A stretch of 64,000 bases of DNA, from contig NW_026516227.1 of the NCBI RefSeq assembly GCF_025602895.1, forward strand, positions 186,001-250,000. Reading direction: 5' to 3'. The notes under the pieces are model-generated. The model did not search any database. It had not been told where the DNA came from and was given only the letters and a program-made list of their open reading frames with translations. Within the stretch, counting starts at the first letter, position 1. Every line of letters begins with the position of its first letter. Both the position numbers and the translations under genes were made by a program. This DNA comes from Polychytrium aggregatum (Eukaryota > Chytridiomycota > Chytridiomycetes > Polychytriales). This document shows, in pieces, positions 1 through 61,873 of this stretch.

Positions 1-3000
1 GGCGGCAACTCGACGGCGACGATCGCTGATGTGTTTCTGAACCGATCGCTTTGCAACACTCCCAAAACCAGTGGCGAGTTCCAAAGCAGTACTCTTCGCT
101 TGTGACCATCACGCCTGTCCGGGGTCGTCTCTCGCCAAACTCAACCGAGACGCTGACATGCACCTTCACCCCAATGAGCGTCAAGAACTGGACACTCAAG
201 CTCCCATGCTACTACTATCACGAGTCGCCAGACTCTGAGACCATCATCAAGGAGTCTGGTCCCCGGCGCACAACCCTGACGGTCATCGGCCAGGGCACAC
301 TTGGACGAATCGTGTCGGAGCCCAAGGATATTGACTTTGGCGCCATCCTCGTCAACACCGTCGTCGAGAAGGAGATTGTGCTCTTCAATCGATGCGAATG
401 TGATGTGGTATACAGCCTGGAAATCTACCGACAAGAGGCCAAGCATGAGGTCAAGGAGAGCCCCAAGCGCGCGGCCCCGGGAAGTCCAAAGTCCACGCGC
501 TTCTCGAACGTCCACACCCTCGACGACGACTGGGCCGACGACCCTGAGGCCGAGACAGAGGTGGTTTCCGAAGACTACACCACGCCGCTAGTCAATAGCG
601 TCAAAGGTGCGTCTCTGGGCGTTGATTTGCTTCGCTGGTCAGCGGCCCCAAATGAGCATTGTCGCTCCAAGCAACGCTGGCTCAGTGGAACTCATCCCAG
701 GTTTCTCCAATTGTCGTTCGCTGGTTCTGCTCAGAGTCGGAGCTTGAAGTCCTCCAAACACACGCGGTTCTGCCTGCACGTTCCCATCACACTCTCAAGC
801 TGAGGGCGTGTCTGAAAGAGCAAACGCACCAGATGTTTACGATATTCTACAGGCTGACCCGTGAGTCTCATATCCATCATACATGTGACGATGTCTCGCA
901 GCTACTGTGGCGTTGAATCAAGCATTGGCACCAGAGTCCGATGCAACACCTGAACCAGCACATGCCACGGCATTGTTCGCTCTTATCCCGCAACATCGTG
1001 TCTCATTCATTCTACAACCATATTTCAGTCCAGAGCCTCGAGGAAGGATATCTTGACTCCAACACACATCTCAACACATCCATGACCATCAACATTGTGA
1101 GTGCACTCTCTGCCTGTCCGGTTGCTGCGGGCCGGCAAATGTCACTCGTTCTCGGCTCGCAAGAGCCCTAACACCCAGCATCGCTATGCAACCGATATGT
1201 CTTTCGGCCCGACTAAATATGCAGCAAAACAAGTATCATCTGTGCAACGTCTCTGCAACTGGCGTCCATCCCTCAGTTCAGGCGACTGACATTCGCTGCG
1301 AAAGTAAGTCATCCAAGTCGTCACTCATAGGTCGAATTGGGAGGGGATTCGTGGTATCAGGCGCCGGAAGGAACCGCGGCAAGTGCGCTTATCTCTGCGA
1401 GCATCACCAGACATCAGCAAAACGGCCATGTGGAAGCTGTTTTCAATCGATCGCTTCAACGACATTCTGAAAGTTGTCGGCAACGACCGTGGCACACTCG
1501 AGGTACGTTTCTGGTGCATGTTGTCGTCCTGCAGGCTTCAGTCGCACCCAGCGCACGCATGCATACTCAGAGCCAAACGCACCAACCTCACTCCTGCATC
1601 CCCCCTCGCTCAACAGGCCGACATTGCGCGTGGATTCGGCGGCGAGTGTTCCTTCCCGACCGACTCGGTGCCGATTCTGTCCCCCGAAGAAATCGACGCC
1701 AATACCGTGACCTTTGACTTTGGGTCGACGCCGCTCGGGTAGGCTGCGAGAGGGCGTGTGGCCGGCGAGCTTTTGAGTGTTTTGTGGCTGTGGTATCAAA
1801 TGCGATACGTGGCGGGACTGGCTTGATTTTTGCTTTACTCGCTACTAATCTGAGGGTTGTCGACGAACACTCAGCTCGAAATCAACGGTGGTGCACATGA
1901 GCCTCAAGAACTCTGGCGTTGTTCCAGTCGAATGGGCGTTCAACTTTCCCAACGACCTTGAGGTACACGGACTCGCCTGGCAGAGACTGTTTCTTGCTCG
2001 TAGTCGAATCAACCACCGTCGATTCGTATGCCGATGCTCACATTACAGGAATACTTTGATGATGCAGGTGGAGATCGAGCACTGGGCCGACCCTGGCGAC
2101 TACACCGAGGAGCAGCTCCATCACAACCTCATTCTCGATAACAATCTCTTCACTATCACGCCAAAGGTCAGTCGCATTGTGCACTCTTGCGTAGGGATGC
2201 CGACTCTACCGCTAATAACCTCAAGTGCCCTCGATTCGCAATGCAGTCTGGATGCCTGCAGCCAGACGAGTCCATACATGTGGTGATGACATACTCCCAC
2301 GAGTTCTCAGGGTCTCATCGGCTGCCGGTGGTTTTCAAGCTCAAGAACGGGAGCTCCACCACGACTGTCTTTGGCGGAAAGGAGGTCTTGATCAAGTTCT
2401 CGGGATACTCGATCCCAAACGGCAAAAAGTTCATTCACTTTCACACCAGCCAACATACCTTTTCCCCTGTCGACATTGGAACGATGGATCCACCCGCTCA
2501 GGTGGGTGAATATGTGATGGATGAGTGCTGTTCTTGGCGGCCCAGGTTAAATCCATTCATTTGGGCAAGAAGAGTAGCTCACCGTGCAACTGATCCGCCG
2601 CCGTGTGTGCAGACCTACGAGCTCATCAACCGCGGGACCATACCACTCAACTATTCGATCGATCTCTCAGCGCTAGATTGGGTAAGAGGGGCGGTATCTT
2701 GAGTTGTCATGCCATGCTTGCTGGACCGAGACTACCTGTATCTCTGTGGGATCCCGATGTCTGCTGTGATGCCCGAGCTGCATCAGCATCGTTTGTGGCA
2801 CAGGTTTTGATTTATTCTGGTCATATCAAGCCTTGATATTCTGATAATCCGGTTTGCGCCTCTGCCATCGCAGCTAAGAGCAGAGGGGTGCGACTTCCCC
2901 ATATTCGAGTGTCGACAGTCCGGCGGCACTATCTCCCCGAATGGCATCGAGCAGATCGAGTGGATTTTCAGGCCACTCGAGGTGCGGGAGTACGAGGTGG

Positions 3001-9435: not shown

Positions 9436-9459
9436 CAGGCAATCCAAAAAAACGAGACA
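9436..9459 (+). repeat. left terminal inverted repeat, copy A
   Basis: Begins CAGGCAATCC directly after the flanking TA and ends in the A-run plus CGAGACA. It is two bases shorter, with one substitution in the core, compared with the left end of the full copy. Confidence 0.85.
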
Positions 9460-9516
9460 CCCAGGTTTTGACCATTCATCGAATATTTTGTTACCCAATG
9501 TTATCGCGCGCTGGCC

Positions 9517-10095
9517 ATGACCATTCGCCACACATCCGACTTTCGCACCGCCGCATTGCGATGCTACGCCCTCATCCATAGCCTGCGTAAGGTCGCCTCC
9601 ATATTCAGTGTATCCAAGAGCACCATCCATCGATGGCACCGAGGATGCAAGCTGGATGACCCATCCCGGGTCCCAGCTCGCAGATCCACTTTCTTCGAGC
9701 AGGCATGTCCAGTCATTCGCACCCTGATTGAACAGGACCCGTTCCAGACTGGTCCTGTGTTGCGATGCAAGCTCGAGTCCATCCTCCAGAGGAAAGTATC
9801 ACTCTCACTCTGCCACACTGCCATCCACCGAGCAGGTCTCTCACACAAGAGGGCAACACACCTCTACAAGTCCAAGCGACTGGATGAGCGAGTGGCACAG
9901 TTCAGGGACCAGGTCCGCTCCATCGACCCACGACGATTCGTCTTTGTCGATGGGACAGGGATCAGGAAATCCATTTTCCCTCTCTACGGATACTCACCGA
10001 AGGGTGCTCCGCTTCGCCAGCGCAATCACATGAAACACAAGTCTGTCTCGGCTGCATTTGCCATCAACCACTCTGGTGTGCTGCATCGCATGTAC
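9517..10095 (+). pseudogene. truncated Tc1/IS630-type transposase
   Basis: Starts MTIRHTSDF, the same start as in the full element. An N-terminal helix-turn-helix (LRKVASIFSVSKSTIHRWH) is followed by the beginning of the DDE catalytic domain with the first acidic residue in a degraded FVDGTGI (FVDETGI in the other copy) and YGYSPKG. It reads on through NHMKHKSVSAAFAINHSG, a stretch deleted from the other copy. At about 10095 it is cut and fused out of frame to Fanzor sequence; the frame closes at 10146. The second Asp and the Glu are missing, so it cannot be an active transposase. Confidence 0.9.
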
Positions 10096-10447
10096 CAAGG
10101 GCTATGCATCCAGCCCTCGGAGGCAGCGGTTTGCTCAGTACTTTGAGCAATTCGAGCACCACCGACGCCACCCACATCGCACTCATGGAAGCGTCAAGGT
10201 GGCCTCGACGAACGAGTTCAACACCACCTCGCAAGTGTGCTCCAAGTGCCTGGAGCCAGTTCGGTTGGAAGGACTCGATGCGCCCAGCGTTGCGAATTCC
10301 CACTTTGTCAGGAGCTGCAAGAATCCCAGCTGCCGGACAGTGTGGAATCGCGACGTCAATGCGGCGCGCAACATGATCACAGTATGCAGGTCGATTGTGG
10401 AGATCGGAGAGCGACCGGCGGTCTTCACTCGGAGGCTGCCAAAGTGA
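10096..10447 (+). pseudogene. Fanzor C-terminal fragment
   Basis: About 116 codons matching the end of the Fanzor at 40398-42836, from GYASSPRRQRFAQYFEQF to the shared end FTRRLPK and TGA at 10445-10447. It includes the alternative catalytic Glu (NEFN), the zinc ribbon cysteines (CSKC and CKNPSC) and the last RuvC Asp in WNRDVNAARN. Differences from the other copy are a one-codon insertion (NEFNTTSQ versus NEFNTSQ), changes just before HGSVKV, and an Ala/Val change near the end. The first RuvC Asp and the guide-binding parts are missing, so no nuclease activity is expected. An ATG at 10058 could open a 129-codon frame. Confidence 0.9.
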
Positions 10448-10545
10448 TCTGTTTTATTTCTTGTGGCTTTGCTTGACGCAAGCACAGCACATACTACCTG
10501 TTCATGGAAACGGCTATGTTGTCCCGTTTTTTTCTGAATAAAGTG
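10445..10545 (+). ncRNA. candidate Fanzor guide (omega) RNA 3' scaffold, copy A
   Basis: The 101 bp from the Fanzor stop to the element's right end differ from the other copy at only three positions. They contain a perfect 6-bp hairpin, TGCTTG-ACG-CAAGCA, at 10470-10484. Known TnpB and Fanzor guide RNAs overlap the 3' end of the nuclease gene and the element's right end, with the guide read from the DNA outside. Here the guide would start at the TA at 10546. Position and conservation are seen; RNA expression is inference. Confidence 0.4.
10520..10545 (-). repeat. right terminal inverted repeat, copy A
   Basis: Read inward it begins CACTTTATTCAG and ends with the 13-base core AAAAAACGGGACA, also present in the left end of the full copy. 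It is followed by TA. Confidence 0.85.
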
Positions 10546-12866: not shown

Positions 12867-13317
12867 AGCACAGCCATGCCGCCATGCCACGTGCCCCCAG
12901 ACACGCCGCTGGCTTGGCGCCCGCCCTGTCCGCATTTTCGATTGGCTGCGAGGCGGGCGGCCAATCAGCGCCGCGCGTGTCCGCGTCAGCAGGGACATGT
13001 GTCCTGCGATAGGAGCGCGGCGTGTGTGTGTGCGCGGCCAGAAATAGGCGATTGGCCCACCACGCCACAGCCGGACACAGCCGGACACAGCGACAGCGGC
13101 GCCGACAACTGCGACAATGCACAGGCGGAGATAGCGATGCGGCCACACACACACGCCATCACACAGACTCACACACACACGCCAGCCCACGCCAGCACAT
13201 CGGCTCCACACAGACTGCGGGGCGGCGGCCGCCCCAATCGGCCTTCCGCCCACCCCCAATCGCCCCCAAACGGCCTATTTGACTGACTCAGTCCTCCGCG
13301 AATGGCCTATTTGACTG

Positions 13318-13410
13318 CATCGGTCTCCATCGGTCTCCATCGATCTGCATCGGTCTCCATCGGTCTCCATCGATCTGCATCGGTCTTTGTCGATCTCCAT
13401 CGATCTGCCG
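13318..13410. repeat. 30-bp higher-order minisatellite
   Basis: Two perfect 30-bp units (13321-13350, 13351-13380) and a third diverged one. Each unit is itself three 10-bp variants of CGGTCTCCAT / CGATCTGCAT. It sits in the probable 5' leader or promoter of the F-box gene. Confidence 0.9.
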
Positions 13411-13554
13411 AGTCGCTCTTCTTCCCCCTGAAGAGCCTCTGCTTCTGCTGCCGGCCTCGTCCCCCCGGTCGTTCTCTCGATCGCATCGGCTTCCGGCTGC
13501 CCATTCCCGTCCCTCCCACCTCCCTTCCCCAGACACACCGTCCTCGTCCCCGCC

Positions 13555-40207: not shown

Positions 40208-40299
40208 TGCCAAGCAAGAATGGGACAGTCCCCGCTATCCTTACAGCGATCAAGGCCCGAAGCTTGATGGTCTGTAGGCCGTATGATCGCAACCGCGTA

Positions 40300-40325
40300 C
40301 ACTTTATTCAGAAAAAAACGGGACA
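40300..40325 (+). repeat. terminal inverted repeat, Fanzor-side end of copy B
   Basis: Starts CACTTTATTCAG after TA and ends in the core AAAAAACGGGACA. It matches the opposite end at 19 of 26 positions. Confidence 0.88.
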
Positions 40326-40400
40326 ATATAGCCGTTTCCATGAACATGTAGTATGTGATGTGCTTGCGTCAAGCAAAGCCACAAGAAATAAAACAGATCA
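40300..40400 (-). ncRNA. candidate Fanzor guide (omega) RNA 3' scaffold, copy B
   Basis: From the Fanzor stop codon (40398-40400) to the element end. It contains the hairpin TGCTTG-ACG-CAAGCA at 40361-40375 (minus strand). It is 98/101 identical to copy A, while neighbouring coding sequence carries insertions and amino-acid changes. In characterised Fanzor and TnpB loci the guide RNA covers this position and runs into flanking DNA. The guide here would be read leftwards from 40299 into the bestrophin 3' flank. The RNA itself is inferred. Confidence 0.45.
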
Positions 40401-42836
40401 CTTTGGCAGCCTCCGAGTGAAGACCACCGGTCGCTCTCCGATCTCCACAATCGACCTGCATACTGTGATCATGTTGCGCGCCGCATTGACGTCGCGATTC
40501 CACACTGTCCGGCAGCTGGGATTCTTGCAGCTCCTGACAAAGTGGGAATTCGCAACACTGGGCGCATCGAGTCCTTCCAACCGAACTGGCTCCAGGCACT
40601 TGGAGCACACTTGCGAGGTGTTGAACTCGTTCGTCGAGGCCACCTTGACGCTTCCATGAGGGTGATTGGGACGGCGTCGGTGGTGCTCGAATTGCTCAAA
40701 GTACTGAGCAAACCGCTGCCTCCGAGGGCTGGATGCATAGCCCTTGCCCTGTCGCCATGATGCATTGCCAAAGGCGATGACCACATCGCTCTCCCTCGGG
40801 ACGTGCTTCAGGACGGCCTTGCACATCCTGTCGACGGCCACTTGGCGCCTCTTGTGGCCCGTGAAGCGATGGTGACGGGCCTTCTTGCCAAGGTGGAAGT
40901 CGAGCTGCACTCGCAGCTCCGGTCGCAGGACATGGGTGAGATGGACCTTGAAAGCCTCCGAGGACGACACCTTGGGCGAGGGAGTGGTCGACATCCAGGT
41001 CTCGATGTCGAGTCGATACTTCATGATATTGTACCACTTGGTGTTGGACCTGTGGCCACACATGTGCTGGTAGTGACCATTCGAGAACGAGACCACCTCG
41101 TCTTGGTGGCCCGGTGCTTGGATGACCGCCGTGAAGATGGAGCCGACTCCAGGATCGATGCCAATCCAAGTGGTGCGGTTGGGGTCTGGATTGCCAATGT
41201 GCTCTTGGATACGCTGTTCGGCAGTCGGAGGAGGCTCGATGGTCTCGGTGCGATCGGTTCGACGCACAAACTTGACGAGGCCGATGGTGCATCCAATGCC
41301 ATCGGTGCTGATCTCGTAGTTGAACAGCTTCTTGTCCACGTCCCGCTCTTGGAAGAGGGAACTACGCAGCTTGAAGCAACTGCGCCAGAGACGATCTTGG
41401 TTGTTGATGCCGTCATCACCTTCTTCCTTGAGCATGTCCCAGGTGAGTCTAAGACGATGATCGGTGTCAAGGAGTTCCCAGAGAGTGACCGTGTCAATCT
41501 TGACATACTTGGCCCTTGCAGTGCATAGAGGAACTATCGTGCACACGGCCGGAGGAGTGTCGAGAGCGAGCTGCTTGAGGGCCCACTTGAGTCTGGATGC
41601 CAGCTTGTTGATCTTGGACTTGGTGGTGCCGAGCTCAGACTTGGCCGTGGTGAGCCTCTTGTCGTCGGAGGGAATGCCTTGGGTAGTGAGCTTGTCCAGC
41701 TTGGCCTGGCGCTGCAGCTCGGTGACTCGGAGGGCGGGCATGTCACAGTCGATCCACTTGTGGACATTGTCGACCATCTTGTCTCGGGCGAGGATTCTCA
41801 CATGGTGTGAGAGGCAATGGAGGGCCCGGAAGCGGTCCTGGTCGTTGCTGTACCGAAACTCGTCCAGGATGTGACCAAAGTCTGGATAGAGGAACTCGAG
41901 ATCGGCCTTGGGTGGAGTCTGCCCTGGTTTCTCGAAGAGCTCGAGACAGGCCTCGATGGCTTCGTGCTTATGCTTGTTGGCTGGGAAGACGGCAGCGCAG
42001 AAGCGGCGAAGGAGTCGCCAGTAAGCCAGGTCGAGGTGGGTGGTGCAGTTGGTGGCATAGGCGTTGACAGCCAGTGTGAGAAGCTGACTGTGAGCACCAT
42101 CAGGCAGACGAGGGGCCGGAGGCAGGTCTGCGTGCCGAGTGGTCTGGTAGTCGCGAAAGGAAGCGACCAGATGCTCGTTGTATTTCTCATTGTCCCCGGT
42201 CGGGGAGAGGGCACCGTCCTGGACGATCTTGAAGCATTGGCGAACGAAAGCAGGGGTGGACTTGGAGATGACGGGGATGGGAAGATCCTGCTCGATGCAC
42301 CGGAGGATGTGCAGGTTGAGCAGCCTGGATGCCTCGAACTGGATCTGGGTCATGGCCTCGACGGTGGCCTGGATCTTGTCGCGGAGAGCGGGATTGAGAC
42401 AACAGCCATCCATCGTCTGCTTAAAGCAGCTGAACTGAGGGGCGGATGACCTTCCATCCACGAGTGGGACGACAGAACTCTTGAGGGGGTGATATTTGGG
42501 ACATTTGCTGGTGTTGCAACGTTCGTGATCGGTGCCATCGCACTGGCGACATCGCTTGCCGGTACTCGAGGAAGTAGATGGACCAGGCTCGGTGGGATCG
42601 ACATCCATTGGATCTGCAGAAGCAGTGGTGGTGAGCGACGGAGCAACAGAGAAACAAGCATGCGTGGGATCAGAATACGAACCAGAGACAGGCTCCGACT
42701 GTGACTTGGCTTTCTTGGGCCTGGGTGGCCGAGGCTGGCCATCACCGGTACCCTTGCGCTTCGGAGGCATGGAGGCAGAGGATGCTGGATGTCTGCCAGT
42801 GGTACTGGTCAGAGCAGAGACTTTTTTATCGTACAA
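40398..42836 (-). CDS. Fanzor (eukaryotic TnpB-like RNA-guided endonuclease)
   Basis: One open frame of 812 codons. The Met at residue 23 (42770, MPPKRKGTG) is an equally good start; it begins a basic nuclear-localisation-like stretch (PPKRKG...RPKKAK). A Cys/His cluster at 96-116 (CX2CX7CX4CX3H) may bind zinc. The middle is helical and basic, as expected for guide-RNA and target-DNA binding. RuvC motif I is WIGIDPGVGS with Asp561. At the usual RuvC II place the sequence reads VVIAFGNASW without Glu; the displaced Glu of Fanzors is Glu737 in NEFNTS. The zinc ribbon is Cys744, 747, 770, 775 and RuvC III is Asp782 in WNRDVNAARN. All catalytic residues appear intact. Fanzors cut DNA matching a guide RNA next to a short target-adjacent motif. 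Family assignment is strong; activity is untested. Confidence 0.93.
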   Translation of the reverse strand: MYDKKVSALTSTTGRHPASSASMPPKRKGTGDGQPRPPRPKKAKSQSEPVSGSYSDPTHACFSVAPSLTTTASADPMDVDPTEPGPSTSSSTGKRCRQCDGTDHERCNTSKCPKYHPLKSSVVPLVDGRSSAPQFSCFKQTMDGCCLNPALRDKIQATVEAMTQIQFEASRLLNLHILRCIEQDLPIPVISKSTPAFVRQCFKIVQDGALSPTGDNEKYNEHLVASFRDYQTTRHADLPPAPRLPDGAHSQLLTLAVNAYATNCTTHLDLAYWRLLRRFCAAVFPANKHKHEAIEACLELFEKPGQTPPKADLEFLYPDFGHILDEFRYSNDQDRFRALHCLSHHVRILARDKMVDNVHKWIDCDMPALRVTELQRQAKLDKLTTQGIPSDDKRLTTAKSELGTTKSKINKLASRLKWALKQLALDTPPAVCTIVPLCTARAKYVKIDTVTLWELLDTDHRLRLTWDMLKEEGDDGINNQDRLWRSCFKLRSSLFQERDVDKKLFNYEISTDGIGCTIGLVKFVRRTDRTETIEPPPTAEQRIQEHIGNPDPNRTTWIGIDPGVGSIFTAVIQAPGHQDEVVSFSNGHYQHMCGHRSNTKWYNIMKYRLDIETWMSTTPSPKVSSSEAFKVHLTHVLRPELRVQLDFHLGKKARHHRFTGHKRRQVAVDRMCKAVLKHVPRESDVVIAFGNASWRQGKGYASSPRRQRFAQYFEQFEHHRRRPNHPHGSVKVASTNEFNTSQVCSKCLEPVRLEGLDAPSVANSHFVRSCKNPSCRTVWNRDVNAARNMITVCRSIVEIGERPVVFTRRLPK

Positions 42837-42896
42837 TGGCGCGATGATCAGATCAAGGCGAGATGAGGGAAGAAAGCAGCAGGACGAAGGTGTGGC

Positions 42897-42903
42897 ATTT
42901 ATA
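42897..42903 (-). promoter_or_regulatory. TATA-like box upstream of Fanzor
   Basis: TATAAAT on the minus strand, 61 bp before the upstream Met and 127 bp before the Met at 42770, and after the transposase remnant. It suggests the Fanzor has its own promoter. Position-based inference. Confidence 0.4.
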
Positions 42904-42953
42904 CCCGAGAGCAGGAACCCGTCTTTGCGGGCTGGTTGGGGAAGTGACCCTGT

Positions 42954-43684
42954 TCAAAAATCGCCGAGAGGTTCAAGACAGGGATGTGAGCGTGAAAATG
43001 GCGGTGTGATCGGGGTGGCTCGACCCCAAATCGGTGGGGACTCAACCCCAAAGAAGTTCTCGATGGGATTGAAGTCGGGTGAAGCAGGTGGGGTGAAGAT
43101 CACTGACCATCCTCGGCGCTCGATGCAGTCCAGGACAGCCATTGTCTTGTGCATGCTGACATTGTCCATCCCAATCACAGAGTCGTCTGAGAAGCACCCC
43201 TCGGTGAGTATCCGTAAAGAGGAAAAATGGATTTCCTGATCCCCGTCTCGTCGACAAAAACGAGTCGTCGTGGGTCGATGGAACGGGTCTCGTCCCTGAA
43301 CTGTGCCACTCGCTCATCCAGTCGCTTGGACTTGTAGAGGTGTGTTGCCCTCTTGTGTGAGAGACCTGCTCGGTGGATGGCAGTGTGGCAGAGTGAGAGT
43401 GATACTTTCCTCTGGAGGATGGACTCGAGCTTGCATCGCAACACAGGACCAGTCTGGAACGGGTCCTGTTCAATCAGGGTGCGAATGACTGGACATGCCT
43501 GCTCGAAGAAAGTGGATCTGCGAGCTGGGACCCGGGATGGGTCATCCAGCTTGCATCCTCGGTGCCATCGATGGATGGTGCTCTTGGATACACTGAATAT
43601 GGAGGCGACCTTACGCAGGCTATGGATGAGGGCGTAGCATCGCAATGCGGCGGTGCGAAAGTCGGATGTGTGGCGAATGGTCAT
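42954..43684 (-). pseudogene. DD34E Tc1/IS630-type transposase broken by internal deletion
   Basis: Opens with MTIRHTSDF and a helix-turn-helix (LRKVASIFSVSKSTIHRWH). The first catalytic Asp is in FVDETGI, then YGYSPRGA, where the frame runs into a stop at 43175. Right after the GGTGCT at about 43193 the sequence jumps to DDSVIGMDNVSMHK in another frame, missing the segment that copy A still has. The rest contains the second Asp (MDN) and the Glu of PDFNPIENFFG with exactly 34 residues between them, so DD34E. The tail after FFGV also looks degraded. A deletion with frameshift is the simplest reading. The piece from 43684 to 43175 is still an open 169-codon frame. Confidence 0.9.
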
Positions 43685-43741
43685 GGCCAGCGCGCGATAA
43701 CATTGGGTAACAAAATATTCGATGAATGGTCAAAACCTGGG

Positions 43742-43767
43742 TGTCCCGTTTTTTATTGGATTGCCTG
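43742..43767 (-). repeat. terminal inverted repeat, transposase-side end of copy B
   Basis: Read inward from 43767 it is CAGGCAATCCAAT then AAAAAACGGGACA, followed by CCCAGGTTTTGACC, also shared with copy A. TA follows at 43768-43769. Confidence 0.88.
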
Positions 43768-43769
43768 TA

Positions 43770-44053
43770 ACATTTCTCCGTTTGGCTGGCAGCCAAAGTT
43801 TTGTTGTGGATTTGGGCAGCATGCTCTTGAATACATCCAGTCGATATCTACGGGTGACAATCAACCGGCGCACCGATATGATGCTCCACGAAGCATGGCA
43901 TCCCGTGCAGGGACGATGCAGGGTTGTTGGGCGGAGGTCCGCCGGCATCATGTCCGCCGCGCGCTTTCCCCATCCCCGCCATTCTTCTCCTCTGCCATCT
44001 TGCAGCTCCTTTCGCTCTCATCTCAGCTGCTCACTCAGCCCCCAGAACAAACC
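43770..44053 (+). promoter_or_regulatory. xylose isomerase upstream region next to the transposon
   Basis: The 284 bp between the transposon end and the isomerase start. A pyrimidine-rich stretch (about 43965-44035) precedes the ATG. The insertion may have replaced or trimmed upstream control sequence. No clear TATA box. Confidence 0.35.
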
Positions 44054-55564: not shown

Positions 55565-56213
55565 CCGGGCTGCGGGGATGGTGTGTGGGCGAGCGGGTTG
55601 GCGATGGCTGCTGGAGCGAGAGCGAGAGGGCCAGTGCCAGAGGACAGAGTTTTTGGTGGCAAAGATGCAAGGACGGATGAGGCGCGCAGTGTGTGTGGGC
55701 GGCACAGGCTGCAGTGTTTCTGTGCGCGCGCGTCCGAATCAAGTGCGACGCAGAGTGACACTATCGAGATATGTACGACAGTCGTGCGACGAGAGTCGAC
55801 ACACTCCCTGTGCACTGGCTGGCCAGCACGCGCACCGGATGTCGCACAGCATGGCGGCTCCGCCCAGGCGGTGGCGCTGCTTGGCGCCGTGGTCTGGGCC
55901 CTTCGGCGCGGGCCTGCCGAGCGCGTCGCTGGCGTTGGGTTGGTGCGACGGGGCATGCAGTCCATCTCGCAGCCCATCTCGCAGTCCGTCTTGCAGCCCA
56001 TCTTGCAGCCCATCTTGCAGCCCATCTTGCAGCCCATCTTGCAGCCCATCTTGCAACGCAGCGCAATCCCTCTCCGGGTTCTGCATTTCTTGCCATCGTC
56101 GTCGCCGTCTCGGCTCCGCATTTCCTGCTCCTCTCGCTTGTCCTGAAGCCCCCTCATCAATCCATACCGCCGCGCCGAGCCTCCAAAGTCTTGACCACAA
56201 CACCAGCCCCAGC
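55565..56213. other. divergent intergenic region kinase / Sel1-repeat gene
   Basis: Head-to-head promoters with a 12-bp minisatellite in the middle. No convincing gene; long frames on both strands are produced by the repeat array. Confidence 0.6.
55957..56055. repeat. 12-bp minisatellite
   Basis: About eight units of CAGCCCATCTTG and variants. The unit length is a multiple of three, so frames stay open through it on both strands. Confidence 0.9.
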
Positions 56214-59200
56214 ATGCCGGCCACCACCGAGCGTTCGCAGAGTCAGGTCCAGCAGCGTCTGGGCGAGCTGTTTATCATCGAGCATCAGCCATTCGTGCTT
56301 AAAGCACGGTTACCAGCACAGATTGTCTCTAAAGGGGTAGGCCGTTGTTTCCCCGGTGCTGCCCGATCGGCAAGATATCTGCCGTCGCTGTGCCCTGACC
56401 CACTCGTCGTGCCCGGCATCCGCTCGACGAAACATCGACTCCCCAATCGGTCCAGCCTGTGGGATTCTCGTCCAATCGTCTCGCTCATCCTGGCGCATGG
56501 CCCGCTTCTGTTCCCTGCAGACCCCCGAGGAGGCACCTCAGCACATGAGTCTCACAGTGTGGCACCAAGGCGACATTGAGAGCGTATACGAATGCTTTTA
56601 CGACCCGCCCAGGCCCGAGATCTTCAGCCTCCTGTCATCTCCAGGTGGCATCCACAGGATTACGCCGCAAGAGGTAGCAGTGCGCTGCATCTGAATACCT
56701 TCCTGATCCGAGCTGGGTCCCGTAACGAATCGATTCGACGAAGGAAAACTTCCTGGGGATACATTTGGTGGTCTTACATTTGGGATGAATGAGTGAGTCG
56801 CTGCTGATGGTCTACTTTGTTCCAGGATAATGAAAGTGGTGCCGAAAGCGCTTCGCCTGAAAAGCTGCTGCTTGTGCTGAAAGACCAGACCGAGTCGGAG
56901 ATCCAAGTCGAGCTTGCCCGAAGACGGATAAGCGACCCGTATGAGAGTCTCCGCAATGAATGCGACCGACTTTCGTTCCTGAGCAGCACCCACAACGATG
57001 AAATCCAGAGCCTGCAGCGGCGTCTGACCTTCCAGGTTCAGGGATCGCTCGGCAGTGTCGACAGCGCAGCAGGTAGCAAAGGTACTGTGCATCGACCAAA
57101 CCGCACACCGCACACCGCCCTCGCTGTCGGCTGTCGGCTGTCGAGTCAACGCTCGCCATCTGCAGTATGGGGTTCCGCATTGGCAGCATCATTGACTGAC
57201 ATCCCTCAATCTGCGGCTCATGTCAAAGCCCGACGCAAGCCGAATGGCGGAGAAGAAGTCGAGGTTCTTATGGCCCAGGTGATCGAAGATTATCACCAGG
57301 GTAGCTACGAGCGCGCCAAGGAGCGGCTGGACGCAATCCTCAAGAGCAACCCCGCATATCCACAGGCCCATCACTACATGGGTCTGCTATACTATTATGG
57401 ACATGGCGTCGAGCTCGACTACACCGTTGCATTCAGCTGGTTCAAGCAGAGTAAGTCTCGGTCGGCCATATGTCATACGCCGCTTCTAAGATATAACGCT
57501 AATGTCTGATCGTGCGACCATGTGGCCGCTTTCGTTGAGTTGACGGCCGGATCGAGCGTCGTAGCTAACATACACCATCTTGTGCTCGCAGGTGCCGAAG
57601 GAGGGTGTGTATCACGCCGACCATGCTTGTTGGAGTGGCCTATGCTATGATCGCATGAACAGAGCAATGAAAGCTGACAATTGCTGAAATAATGTGATTT
57701 CGAACTGCCCAGTGTCGTCGAGTCACAAAACTACCTCGGCGAATGCTATATGTACGGCCATGGAACAGCTCAGGACTCGAAAAAGGTGGGCTGCGTCGCG
57801 TTTGCCAAGACTCCCGCCGGACAGGCTGATTCTATGTCTGCCTCTCTAACGAAGCTTCTGATACCGTGCCTCAGGCCATCCGCTGGTACAAGAAGGCTGC
57901 TGAGCAAAACTGCCCTTTTGCACAGACAAGTCTGGGACTCTGTCACCAGTCCGGTACCGGAGTCGACCAGAGCGACGAGCTGGCAGTCTCCAATTTTGTG
58001 GCTGCTGCACAGCAAGGCCATACAGAGGCACAGATTCTGCTGGCATCATGCTATGAAACCGGAAGCGGCGTCGCCAAGGACATGGAGCAGGCGGTCCATT
58101 GGCTCCGGTAGGGTGGTGCACCACGAGAGATCCTCCAAGAGGTCGCCTGATGACTGAATCGACATCAGTGGCGATCCTCAATGCCCAGCTGCATACGCTT
58201 ATCATTCTTGCTGATTTTCGATATTGTGCGACCATCCAGGTTGGCTGCAGAGCAAGGCGATCCAGATGCCCAGTGCCGACTTGGTCTTTGCTACCAGAAC
58301 GGCAGCGGCGTCCCAGTCGATAATGAAAAGGCAGTCGAGGTAGACCATTTGCGGCACTCTTTGATATTCGCTGATATATCGACCCTTGAAAGCGGTGCTT
58401 ATGCGTGTGCATGGCTCTGCTCTTCATCTTGCAGTGGTTCACCAAGAGCGCCGATCAAGGTATGTGCGCCCTTCGCCGGGTCTCACCATCGAGCTTGATC
58501 ATCCGTGCATCCTCGTTAACTCGGTGTCCCAACTCAGATTTTTCCGATGGACTGAACCACCTTGGCTACTGCTACGAGCATGGTTTGGGCGTCGAGGAGA
58601 GCGCCAAGACGGCCGTGCGGTATTACCGAAAAGCCGCTGACCATGGTGAGACCCATACACTTGTATCGCCGCAGCCTCATTGTGTCATCGTAGTTCTGGA
58701 CTGAATGCCCATCGCCTCTCACCGACAGGCAATCCCGTGGCATACTTCAACCTCGCCATTTGCTTCGAAAACGGCATCGGTACCAAGATCAACCTGCCGA
58801 TGGCGTTTTCATGTTTCAAGGAGGCCGCCCAACACGGCGATCCGGATGCACAGTACAATATGGGTCGATTTTTGCAGCTCGGTATCGGTGTTTCCGTCGA
58901 CATCAAGCGGGCAATTGGACTCTTCAGAAAGTCGGTAGGTTATCGCCCCACATTCAGAGCCTGCAACAGTCCGATGCACTATGCAGCGGCTCGTCCGCTT
59001 CGCCATCGAGGCCTTTGAATTGTAGCTTCGTTTCTTCTACCAGTCTGGCTTGCAGAAACCAGATGTTTGATTTCGGTAGCGGACGCTAGTGCTGAGACAT
59101 GCCGATTAGTATTCGCTGGTCGCTAATGCAGTCTTTCGAATCGGCTAACAATGATGGGACCTACTTTTGTGTGATTCAATCTGCCAGGCCGACCAAGGTA

Positions 59201-61873
59201 ATCCCGTTGCGGCTAGCATGATGCCTCCCTCTGCCCACCCTTTGCCAGACTCACCGTATCTTGCCACACAGACAACGCGGACTCTCAATTCAGCCTTGGA
59301 GAGTGTTATGCCAAGGGGACTGGTGTGAAGCAAGACTGGACCCAGGCTGCGATGTGGTACAACGAGGTATATCAAAGCCGTATATCAAGCGGGCGGTAGC
59401 AGAGGCTATGCGAACAGGGTGATGTTTTGGTATGATTGCAGCGTAGTCGTCACAGTCGATCCCTACGACCTGGCTGTGTGGGCAGGCAATGCGTGACTAA
59501 CCGAGTCGCGGCGCTTTGAAAGGCATCGATCAACGGACACCCTCTGGCACAATATGCACTCGGTCGCTGCTACAAGAAAGGACTTGGTGTGAAAGTCAGT
59601 CCGGAGCTGGCCGTGGTAAGACTCGATAAGATATGACGCTAATTCAAGCTCTGGATGGTGGGTAAACTGCGAGTTTGCGCCTCCGTACTACATCCCTAAC
59701 GCACGAATGGCGGCAGAAATGGTTTTCCAAGTCGGCGCATCAAGGCGTCGCGGTTGCCCAAGGCAACTTGGGTCTCTGTTACGAAAGCGGCTTTGGCGTA
59801 CAAGTAGATCTTGAAAGGGCCGTCGAGTGGTATACCAAGAGTAAGCGACATGGCAACTACTTGTGCACAGTTTTGTCGAGCCGTGTGTCACCGCGATCGA
59901 CGCTGACCCAGGATCTTCCGCGATAACCGCTCTCCAGGTGCCGATCAAGGCAACCCAGGCAAGTGCCGACGCTGACAAGCGAGACGTGACCAAGCATAAT
60001 TTGACCGTCGGCTTATGTTTCGACCCGATCTGTCGCTTTGCAGCTGCCCAATGCAACCTCGCCATCTGCTACGAGCATGGGTTTGGCGTCAAGCAGGACT
60101 ATCTGACGGCCGTTTCATACTATCTCAACTCTGCGTCACAAGAGTCAGTTGCGCCTCTTTGTCTCTTACCCTATCCATCTCTGTCACCCGATTGTGCATC
60201 TGAACGACGAGGGCGGAAGTCGTTTGCAGCAGTTTTGGTCAGCACCAGCGACCTGACACAAGCATGCTGTGGCTGCAGTCGAGTGTATGGAGTAATTGAC
60301 ACTCTCCTTCCCCTCACAGCGATAGCCTCGCGGCGTGCAATCTCGGCGTGCTCTTTGAGAACGGACACGGAGTGCCACAAGATTATGAAGAAGCCGTGCG
60401 CTGGTATCGACAGTCAGCTGAAGCCGGATATGCAGGTATGCCGTGCTTCCAACCGGGGCGAGCGCATGGCCGTCGCAGATGCTAACGCGACCCATGGCTT
60501 CAACAGCCGGCCAGTGCAACCTTGGCCGCTGCTTCCAGAATGGCCATGGCGTACAAAAGGATGTCAAGGAGGCCGTCAAGGTAAATGCATAAAGCACCAT
60601 GGCCTGCCTTGGTCGCCGAGCGGTGATTGCTGACGAAACTGCACCGGTTTCACTCTGTCTCCCACTGTCAGTGGTACCGGCTTGCTGGCGAGCAAGGCGA
60701 CGTCGATGCCCTGTTGCTCCTGGCATACTGTCTCGAAAACGGAATCGGAAGCGAGAAGAACCTCGAGAAGGCCGCCGAGTGCTACATGAGAGCGGCGGAT
60801 CTGGGCGAACCCTCGGCTTACTACGGCCTGGGTGTCTGCTACCACAAGGGGCGTGGTGTCAACGAAGACTACAAGTAGGTATCTCGCCGGTATTGCCGGC
60901 AGCAAATGGTGTCGGTGGCGGATCAAGATCTCATCTGGGCTCGGAAACTAATGCCCATTGCTCGTGATCCAGGGAAGCAGCCAAGTGGTATAGCAAGGGC
61001 GCCGAGGCTGGGTGAGTTGGAATGGCGACCCGCTAAGCAGCTTGTGTCCTGCATATCCGCTCGCCAGCGTTGGTTTGTGCAATCAAAGTCGCCGGTGCGA
61101 AGCTGCTATCCTCCTCCATTGGAGCAGACTGCAATCTCACGGCGCTGGCTGATGCAGAATTTACCGATTGTGCCAGCCACGCCGAGTCCCAGTACAGCTA
61201 CGGCCTATTGTTTGAGAAGGGATATGGTGTCCATCGGGATCTCAAGGAGGCTGTTTTCTGGTACAAGCGCGCCTCTGACCAAGGTTTGTGTGGTTGCCAT
61301 GAGCCTGAGTATGTCCGAGGGCCTTTCTCGAGGAGAGTATGAGAGTATCGACGAGCCCTCTCACCTCACCCACAATCGCGCTCTGACATGATATCCCGCT
61401 CGAACCCAGGCCTGACACAAGCCCACTGGTCGCTGGGTCTGTGCTACGAGCGCGGACTGGGTGTCGAAAAGAACTATCCAAAAGCCCTCGACCTCTACGG
61501 AAAGGCAGCCAAAAAGGGCCATAGCCGAGCGATCGCCCGGATCAGCGCGCTTCACAACCTGCCTCCCATCACCAACCAGGGGCCCACAACCCTCGATGTC
61601 ATTCTAGAAGAGCCCACTCTTGAGGCTGCTGAGGATACGGCCGATGCGCTTCCCGAACGCAAGCCGTCCATCATCGACAGGGTCAGCAACCTCCGGACGC
61701 GAATGAGGCCGATCTCTGAGCTTATTCCCAGCTTTCGGGCTTCTGAGTCCAAGAGCACAAGCGCTGTGGCCGGTGCAGGAATTGGTACAAAGCTGCCCGC
61801 TGCTGTCTCCAGACTTCGCCAGAAAGGTGCCCGCGAGTCGTTCATCGATTCTCTCAACACTGCATGTAAGTAG
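56214..61873 (+). CDS. Sel1-like repeat (SLR) protein, exon-per-repeat
   Basis: Begins MPATTERSQSQVQQRLGEL. Early exons (to about 57080) are charged and partly coiled-coil (DQTESEIQVELARRR, NDEIQSLQRRLTFQVQG). From about 57234 there is a long series of TPR-like Sel1 repeats, each near one exon: YPQAHHYMGLLYYYGHGVEL, FAQTSLGLCHQSGTGVDQSD, AQYNMGRFLQLGIGVSVDIK, AQGNLGLCYESGFGVQVDLE, YGLGVCYHKGRGVNEDY, TQAHWSLGLCYERGLGVEKN and others, roughly fifteen in total. SLR proteins are adaptors (Hrd3/SEL1L, Skt5/Chs4 chitin synthase activators). The stop at 61871-61873 lies within GTAAGTAG, a perfect splice donor, so the frame may continue into the next entry. Many small exons are approximate. Confidence 0.75.

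Follow-up and report, generated by a model that had tools for sequence, protein, structure and literature searches.

Asymmetric left-end scars in a high-copy family of Tc1/mariner-type transposons that carries a predicted Fanzor1 nuclease

Introduction

What does a Fanzor nuclease do for the transposon that carries it? The question is raised by a TA-flanked element, encoding a Fanzor beside the remnant of a transposase, in a stretch of 64,000 nucleotides from Polychytrium aggregatum (contig NW_026516227.1, positions 186,001 to 250,000; referred to here as the window). The biological role of Fanzor cleavage is stated as unknown in a description from 2023, as far as its accessible text goes (PMC10432273). 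The element belongs to a large family, and comparison of its copies revealed changes at the left end (LE, the transposase side) that are not seen at the right end (RE, the Fanzor side). What is new here is this asymmetry of the scars, together with a family size that allows them to be counted; possible causes are weighed below. We lean slightly towards a reading in which this is a high-copy Tc1/mariner (IS630-type) family with a Fanzor1 nuclease, and the scars would stem from cuts at guide-matched flanks followed by copying (homing). No report of such end scars was found in the literature on Fanzor, TnpB retention or mariner strand transfer, most subscription papers being outside the search.

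The family and the samples compared

The genome (64.7 Mb in 418 contigs, a eukaryote by gene and transposon content) contains 302 occurrences of the exact RE motif and 240 pattern-matched LEs, counts that include repeated contigs. Among the first 100 listed REs, 61 could be paired with listed LEs, 48 of the resulting elements spanning 3385–3786 bp and 13 spanning 279–1110 bp, with none between 1110 and 3385 bp; the other 39 were unpaired under strict LE patterns. At least 57 homologous Fanzor frames are present (best of 1282 candidates scored), 48 of these 57 without a stop; the frame in the window is hence more than a chance one.

The loci compared numbered 57, of which 51 are distinct. Among the first 48, five have the same two flanks as a locus on a different contig, L010 is the same as L003, and 40 had been chosen by Fanzor score. 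An unbiased set consisted of the 14 paired full-length elements on contigs C1–C13, which were not chosen by Fanzor. Five of 12 sites examined (L001, L021, L025, L044 and L045) recur on a second contig, where they are also occupied.

Changes at the left end often copy the flank

Over the 51 distinct loci, the first 12 positions of the LE vary at positions 1–3 and 6 only, and the LE differs from CAGGC in 12 copies. Five of these share a heritable CGGGCG form, with a flank match no longer than one base, and the changed LE of L044 has no match to its own flank. A match of five bases between LE and own right flank is seen in L011, L034 and L038, one of three bases in L042 and one of a single base in L051, and the LE of L031 matches TAGTGCAATC with a one-base shift. 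Summed over the 12 copies, the in-register match between LE and right flank was 20, the maximum in 20,000 random re-pairings being 16; the pattern had first been noticed in the same 12 copies that were used for this test.

Genome-wide, seven REs are followed by TA-NNGGC. Four had been seen previously (L034 and L038, which are scarred, and L004 and L006, which are canonical), and at all three newly examined places (C24, C156 and C179) the LE carries exactly the bases of the flank. The first base of the LE is changed in 24 of 240 cases, and a changed last base of the RE was found in none beside the 302 exact REs (Fisher test, 1.6e-9, or 6e-6 when duplicates are collapsed to an estimated 14, a guess). 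Seven of nine newly seen variants that start with T have a T as first flank base, compared to 73 of the 302 REs (P 0.001; 4/5 and P 0.014 with likely duplicates merged by eye). Private changes of the LE are often in-register copies of the target sequence that directly follows the insertion.

Target site and candidate TAM

In 223 of the 240 LEs, the TA on the LE side is preceded by a T, against a background of 13.8 % of TA dinucleotides in the window that are preceded by T. At the RE side the corresponding A is found in 6/50, which is no excess, and G in 22/50, some excess. According to the accessible text on Spizellomyces punctatus, a conserved CA precedes the left end, and CATA is the target-adjacent motif (TAM) of its nuclease SpuFz1 (PMC10432273). 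As that TAM is the conserved CA plus TA, the conserved T plus TA suggests 5'-TTA as the predicted TAM of the window family. The Fanzor-less sister copy in the window also lies at TTA, and the context alone is thus no proof of a role for a copy's own Fanzor. Seventeen copies have ATA, CTA or GTA instead of TTA, and seven of them are first-base LE variants (C124:162029, C168:155993, C168:490666, C334:1082768, C362:2141, C362:328124 and C401:129388), some probably being duplicates on paired contigs.

The Fanzor protein

The zinc ribbon of the Fanzor protein passes the cut-off of PF07282 (E 6.2e-9; 36.3 bits versus 26.3) and includes four cysteines (C722, C725, C748 and C753) followed by RD. The predicted RuvC residues are D539, within an IDPG motif at 538, E715, just ahead of the ribbon (the alternative glutamate position), and D760, and all three are identical in the window family (family A) and in a second family of the same genome, family F. 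A preliminary description of the locus, made from the sequence by eye, had named the four-Cys ribbon, now confirmed by the profile, and the same RuvC residues as Asp561, Glu737 and Asp782; the ATG lies 22 codons after the listed TTG start, hence the two numberings. A lack of any match to Fanzor/TnpB profiles, which that description had named as a refutation, did not occur. The protein also contains STDG at 488 (TDG at 489–491), and the DPG and WED TDG motifs are features of Fanzor1 in the accessible part of PMC10711439. At the N-terminus there is one CX2CX4HX7C motif (residues 74–90).

The single window sequence gave weak matches to PDB entries, with LaTranC first (E 0.4) and GtFz1 at E 0.71. 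Profiles built from families A and F found SpuFz1 first (E 0.023; E 0.0084 in a second profile run, over residues 566–789, with GtFz1 next). In the sequence alignment of the first run, E715 and D760 align with E541 and D606 of SpuFz1, and the aligned SpuFz1 glutamate and aspartate are 65 residues apart, the same spacing as in the catalytic numbering seen in the published text (PMC10432273). A profile that also included two Fanzor2-like proteins of this genome, L059 and L061, placed mimivirus L79 first. The AlphaFold model was poor (mean pLDDT 54.5, pTM 0.37). By its motifs and by the alignments with SpuFz1 the nuclease is a probable Fanzor1, on a member of an already known kind of Fanzor transposon, and by analogy it is probably aimed by an RNA guide. 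Scans of viral contigs for relatives found none.

Selection on the two proteins

Selection was assessed by comparing observed variants with the same mutations placed at random (a mutation-matched null). Shared Fanzor variants gave omega values of 0.36, 0.37 and 0.31 for minor counts of 2–3, 4–8 and 9–25, respectively, and shared transposase variants in codons 1–160 gave 0.39 (counts 2–3) and 0.52 (counts 4–25). For 20 copies picked without regard to Fanzor score, omega was about 0.36–0.37 for the Fanzor and 0.18 for the transposase. The shared variants of the Fanzor are hence shown to be under purifying selection. For Fanzor singletons the values were 0.59 (20 copies), 0.78 (the comparison that gave the values by minor count), 0.96 (unbiased 14, where 93 of 165 changes were dropped as clustered) and 1.48 (eight DNA-ranked copies). 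Parsimony dN/dS for the Fanzor, with the mutation spectrum uncorrected, was approximately 0.37–0.38 on terminal and internal branches alike; because equal values on both branch types do not separate recent from old changes, the mutation-matched tests were relied on instead. We take this to mean that the spread of the family required both proteins and that single copies decay afterwards.

Were the Fanzor a passenger without a present role, the transposase alone would amplify the family and the copies would decay neutrally. This would account for the eight of 14 unbiased copies in which the Fanzor is changed or broken (strict count), and for private changes that are near neutral in that set, with the omega of 0.96. 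However, the shared variants are constrained (omega 0.31–0.38), and the size gap among the 61 paired elements indicates that partial deletions of the Fanzor have not visibly spread, while deletions of the transposase have. We consider a passenger improbable. In the 51 distinct copies, a sample enriched for Fanzor score, the Fanzor frame is open in 35 and the 310-aa transposase frame in 10, and we make no claim that Fanzor frames are better kept, the counts in the unbiased 14 being 6 versus 5.

A candidate right-end RNA

The last 60–75 nt of the RE in families A and F can fold with the final bases of the element paired upstream. Mean pairing of the last 13 nt was 0.78 in A and 0.73 in F, levels reached by 2.5 % and 4.3 %, respectively, of 400 random windows ending in TA. 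For the terminal TA the pairing probability of the T was 0.76 (A) and 0.89 (F), and that of the final A was 0.10 (A) and 0.63 (F). A duplex test was significant for F alone (P 0.048; A 0.39, LE 0.44), whole-sequence z-scores were −1.5 (A) and −0.2 (F), and in the best fold of the last 112 nt of F the end is unpaired. In Fanzor RNAs the target duplication sits inside the scaffold, according to the accessible text of PMC10711439. With moderate confidence, a right-end RNA is predicted to fold with terminal pairing.

The RE of family A has an AATAAA three bases from the element end in 49 of 51 copies, and this could set the RNA end by polyadenylation within the flank, and thereby the length of the guide. 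However, conservation of the terminus is expected anyway, and family F, with a Fanzor that is 43 % identical, has no AATAAA there but ends GGATAGACTG then TA. A role as poly(A) signal was dropped because of family F, and we regard it as very improbable.

Homing or integration as the source of the scars

In the homing reading, transcription of the right end would yield a scaffold some 75 nt long and extending to the duplicated TA, with the flank just beyond as the guide. The Fanzor would then recognize 5'-TTA plus the guide-matched flank, that is, an empty site (the other allele or an excised sister), and cut inside its right flank, leaving a left arm that keeps a tail of flank sequence. Cutting by the transposase, at the TA, leaves the left arm without flank sequence. 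The left arm would copy from the occupied allele, its tail opposing the LE in register and being kept if it ends in a match, and the expected outcome would be an exact RE, changes at the first bases of the LE and scars that depend on microhomology. With the occupied copy as template, repair would restore or spread the element (homing or retention). Copies with a dead transposase, such as that in the window, would depend on transposase from other copies, and for short copies without Fanzor the Fanzor would have to act in trans.

SpuFz1 cuts 16–21 nt past its TAM, as given in the accessible text of PMC10432273, and as a cut of this type falls on the right-flank side it would fit a left arm with a flank tail. 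The same source has ghost RNAs of S. punctatus working with SpuFz1 in human cells, and the scars in short copies are therefore compatible with a Fanzor acting in trans. We further propose tentatively, as possible rather than probable, that the LE scars record Fanzor-driven homing in a eukaryote; many of the insertions would then have been copied, one or more times, into an empty allele cut in its flank behind TTA.

Alternatively, the transposase might suffice, with right-end strand transfer occurring first, the left arm being extended into the target and the left end joined by template switching; the Fanzor may then do something else. The overhang left by mariner transposases has the length of LE positions 1–3, and it is to these positions that private LE variation is confined. 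The scars in short Fanzor-less copies and the TTA beside the Fanzor-less sister in the window would also follow from such a scheme. However, the right end is unscarred, so that a fixed order of the two ends would be needed, and the scar rate seems tied to a match between the flank and LE positions 3–5 (5/7 versus 4/47 with the genome-wide seven, P 0.0007), a match that simple gap filling does not require. We judge a transposase-only origin somewhat unlikely.

A number of observations weigh against homing. Within the 51 loci alone the dependence on the flank match is 2/4 versus 4/47 (P 0.063), and asynchronous integration could also confine changes to LE positions 1–3. Only four of the 24 first-base LE variants are shown to match the flank over five bases; eight match at the first flank base (T), the sole base read there, four have no match (C124:162029, C401:129388, C386 and C400), and the remaining eight are known only to lack an NNGGC flank. 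Seven of the 24 sit at ATA, not TTA. The scarred copies are often short (about 270–380 bp, or 1.1 kb by position) and cannot hold a Fanzor, and in the unbiased 14 the Fanzor is open in just six (seven if the in-frame indels of L053 are allowed) and the transposase in five. For the right-end RNA, family A shows little pairing of the final A in the TA, and the left end read outwards, used as a control, scores 0.62, the random mean being 0.48. Finally, no empty allele was found in searches with left and right flanks joined, which covered the sister copy and 32 of 42 distinct loci with flanks (12 sites, best 40 of 41 candidates; 20 sites plus the sister, best 40 of 242, none of them for the sister).

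Junction-spanning matches were rejected as empty alleles for L028 and L029, where they are look-alikes of the insertion's own left end, and for L005, where they are diverged repeats (79–82 %) and the comparison is ambiguous by one base. One uninserted stretch, 73 % identical (L007), is compatible with a 2-bp duplication, though it contains gaps, the nearest being about 12 bases left of the junction. It lends weak support to the TA being a 2-bp target duplication.

The carrier and the copy in the window

Some related copies, approximately 3.74 kb long, encode a 310-aa DD34E transposase. In the full-length copy L011 the catalytic residues are D145, D221 and E256, with 34 residues between the last two, and the protein matches the NCBIfam IS630 model (123.6 bits, cut-off 100) and PF13358 (DDE_3; E 1e-23). 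TA is found at the left side of 40/42 loci and at the right side of 41/42. By its profile matches, the carrier is a Tc1/mariner (IS630-type) DD34E element.

The features of the window copy are collected in Table 1. On the minus strand the transposase remnant precedes the Fanzor frame, and the terminal inverted repeats (TIRs) are related but imperfect. Most of what had been noticed earlier stood up: both inverted ends with TA on either side (the second at 43768–43769), a Fanzor frame without interruption (790 codons, zero stops), a promoter-like TATAAA, 133 nt upstream of the Fanzor ATG and kept in 49/51 copies, and a sister copy for comparison, which has the opposite orientation and has lost most of the transposase C-terminus and the Fanzor. 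Of the D-34-E transposase, the residues are present, but the second D and the E are out of frame and the 169-aa frame ends before them. As the frame breaks after the first D, the description of this copy as a complete unit fails, and the window copy alone is not autonomous.

Table 1. Features of the Fanzor element and its sister copy in the window
Feature	Position	Strand	Basis or comment
Whole element, 3468 bp	40300..43767	minus	Ends placed by comparing 48 loci
LE (transposase side) and RE (Fanzor side)	LE 43767; RE 40300	minus	
TA at RE, target duplication	40298..40299	minus	TA seen in 41/42 loci
TTA at LE (TA duplication and preceding T), candidate TAM	43768..43770	minus	TTA in 49/51 distinct loci
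Remnant of the transposase (169 aa) with HTH and the first catalytic D	43175..43684	minus	Frame lost beyond first D
Out-of-frame remnant with second D and E (D-34-E; MDNVS, NPIENFF)	43030..43170	minus	Limits approximate
TATAAA, putative Fanzor promoter element	42898..42903	minus	GTATAAATG in 49/51 copies
Fanzor1 coding frame, 790 aa	40398..42770	minus	Frame, profile and motif evidence
Candidate omegaRNA scaffold, last ~75 nt including TA	40298..40372	minus	Predicted terminal pairing; analogy to SpuFz1 (PMC10432273, accessible text)
Candidate guide, flank immediately past TA	40278..40297	minus	Inferred from Fanzor/TnpB anatomy
Sister copy, 1110 bp	9436..10545	plus	Internally deleted, both ends kept, TTA at LE

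Over the whole window, Rfam at gathering thresholds gave zero matches, and six other large frames had zero Pfam matches at E up to 1e-4. Diverged 58-nt repeats at 57930–60775 encode, by eye, Sel1-like motifs (YEHG.GV), and at 13305–13414 and 55944–56075 there are short tandem arrays, their units being 10 (or 30) and 12 bases long.

Other Fanzor families in the genome

The genome is rich in Fanzor-type proteins: among the best 150 of 663 candidates, matches to PF07282 fall in open frames of 101–977 aa and in several families, family A included. Family F (L058, G000:C402:40120-43300) is a second Fanzor1 family, whose protein has two CX2CX4HX7C motifs at the N-terminus and whose right-end TIR is CAGTCTATCCAGAAAGAAACGGGACAGT. 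Sequence next to the L005 element is 80 % matched to the Fanzor gene of family F in its 3' part, and the flanks of L004 and L007 match the same stretch indirectly; hence, A copies appear to be inserted into or beside F copies. The right flank of L028 starts with TA-CAGCGTACCCAGAACGAAACGGGACACCC, apparently the end of a further related element with which the TA is shared.

The Fanzor2-like proteins L059 and L061 are shorter. L059 (G000:C124:405150-406960; frame 340-1767, minus strand) is 476 aa long, with a weak MerR match at the N-terminus (E 0.0058), a stretch that reads as serine-recombinase-like and a Fanzor2/TnpB-like nuclease. It resembles a relative of IS607 whose TnpA and TnpB have been fused or collapsed.

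Relation to known systems

In the parts of the sources that are accessible, SPu-1/SpuFz1 of S. punctatus resembles the window family in its single-frame Fanzor1, TA-flanked inverted repeats and gene-less ghost copies (PMC10432273, PMC3627910), and in having bases conserved upstream of the left end, CA in SPu-1 and T here. The C-terminal part aligns over residues 566–789 with both catalytic residues in line, though the sequence similarity is weak (E 0.0084). A transposase was not found within the SPu-1 repeats, again in the accessible text (PMC10432273), whereas some copies of the window family encode one, and the TAM is CATA in SpuFz1 but, by prediction, TTA here. A published type of element, likened here by its description, combines a mariner transposase and a Fanzor1 inside one TA-flanked unit, and the accessible part of that description does not mention one-sided end scars.

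TnpB of IS200/IS605 reportedly acts as a retention and drive nuclease, as attributed to Meers in 2023. The use of a guide derived from the flank, cutting of the empty site and copying back, described for TnpB in the accessible text of PMC11870625, is the logic that we infer for the window family. Unlike IS200/IS605 TnpB, the window family has a DDE transposase and a eukaryotic host.

Full-length copies are numerous in this family, the transposase lies on the same element as the Fanzor, a TAM is predicted, and the end signature lends itself to counting wherever a genome contains a Fanzor transposon. If the scars depend on the Fanzor, the question of its role becomes a sequence test; if they also arise in its absence, it is the asymmetry of mariner integration that is worth explaining. 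Should the homing reading be true, the scars would reveal the use of a Fanzor to the transposon that carries it.

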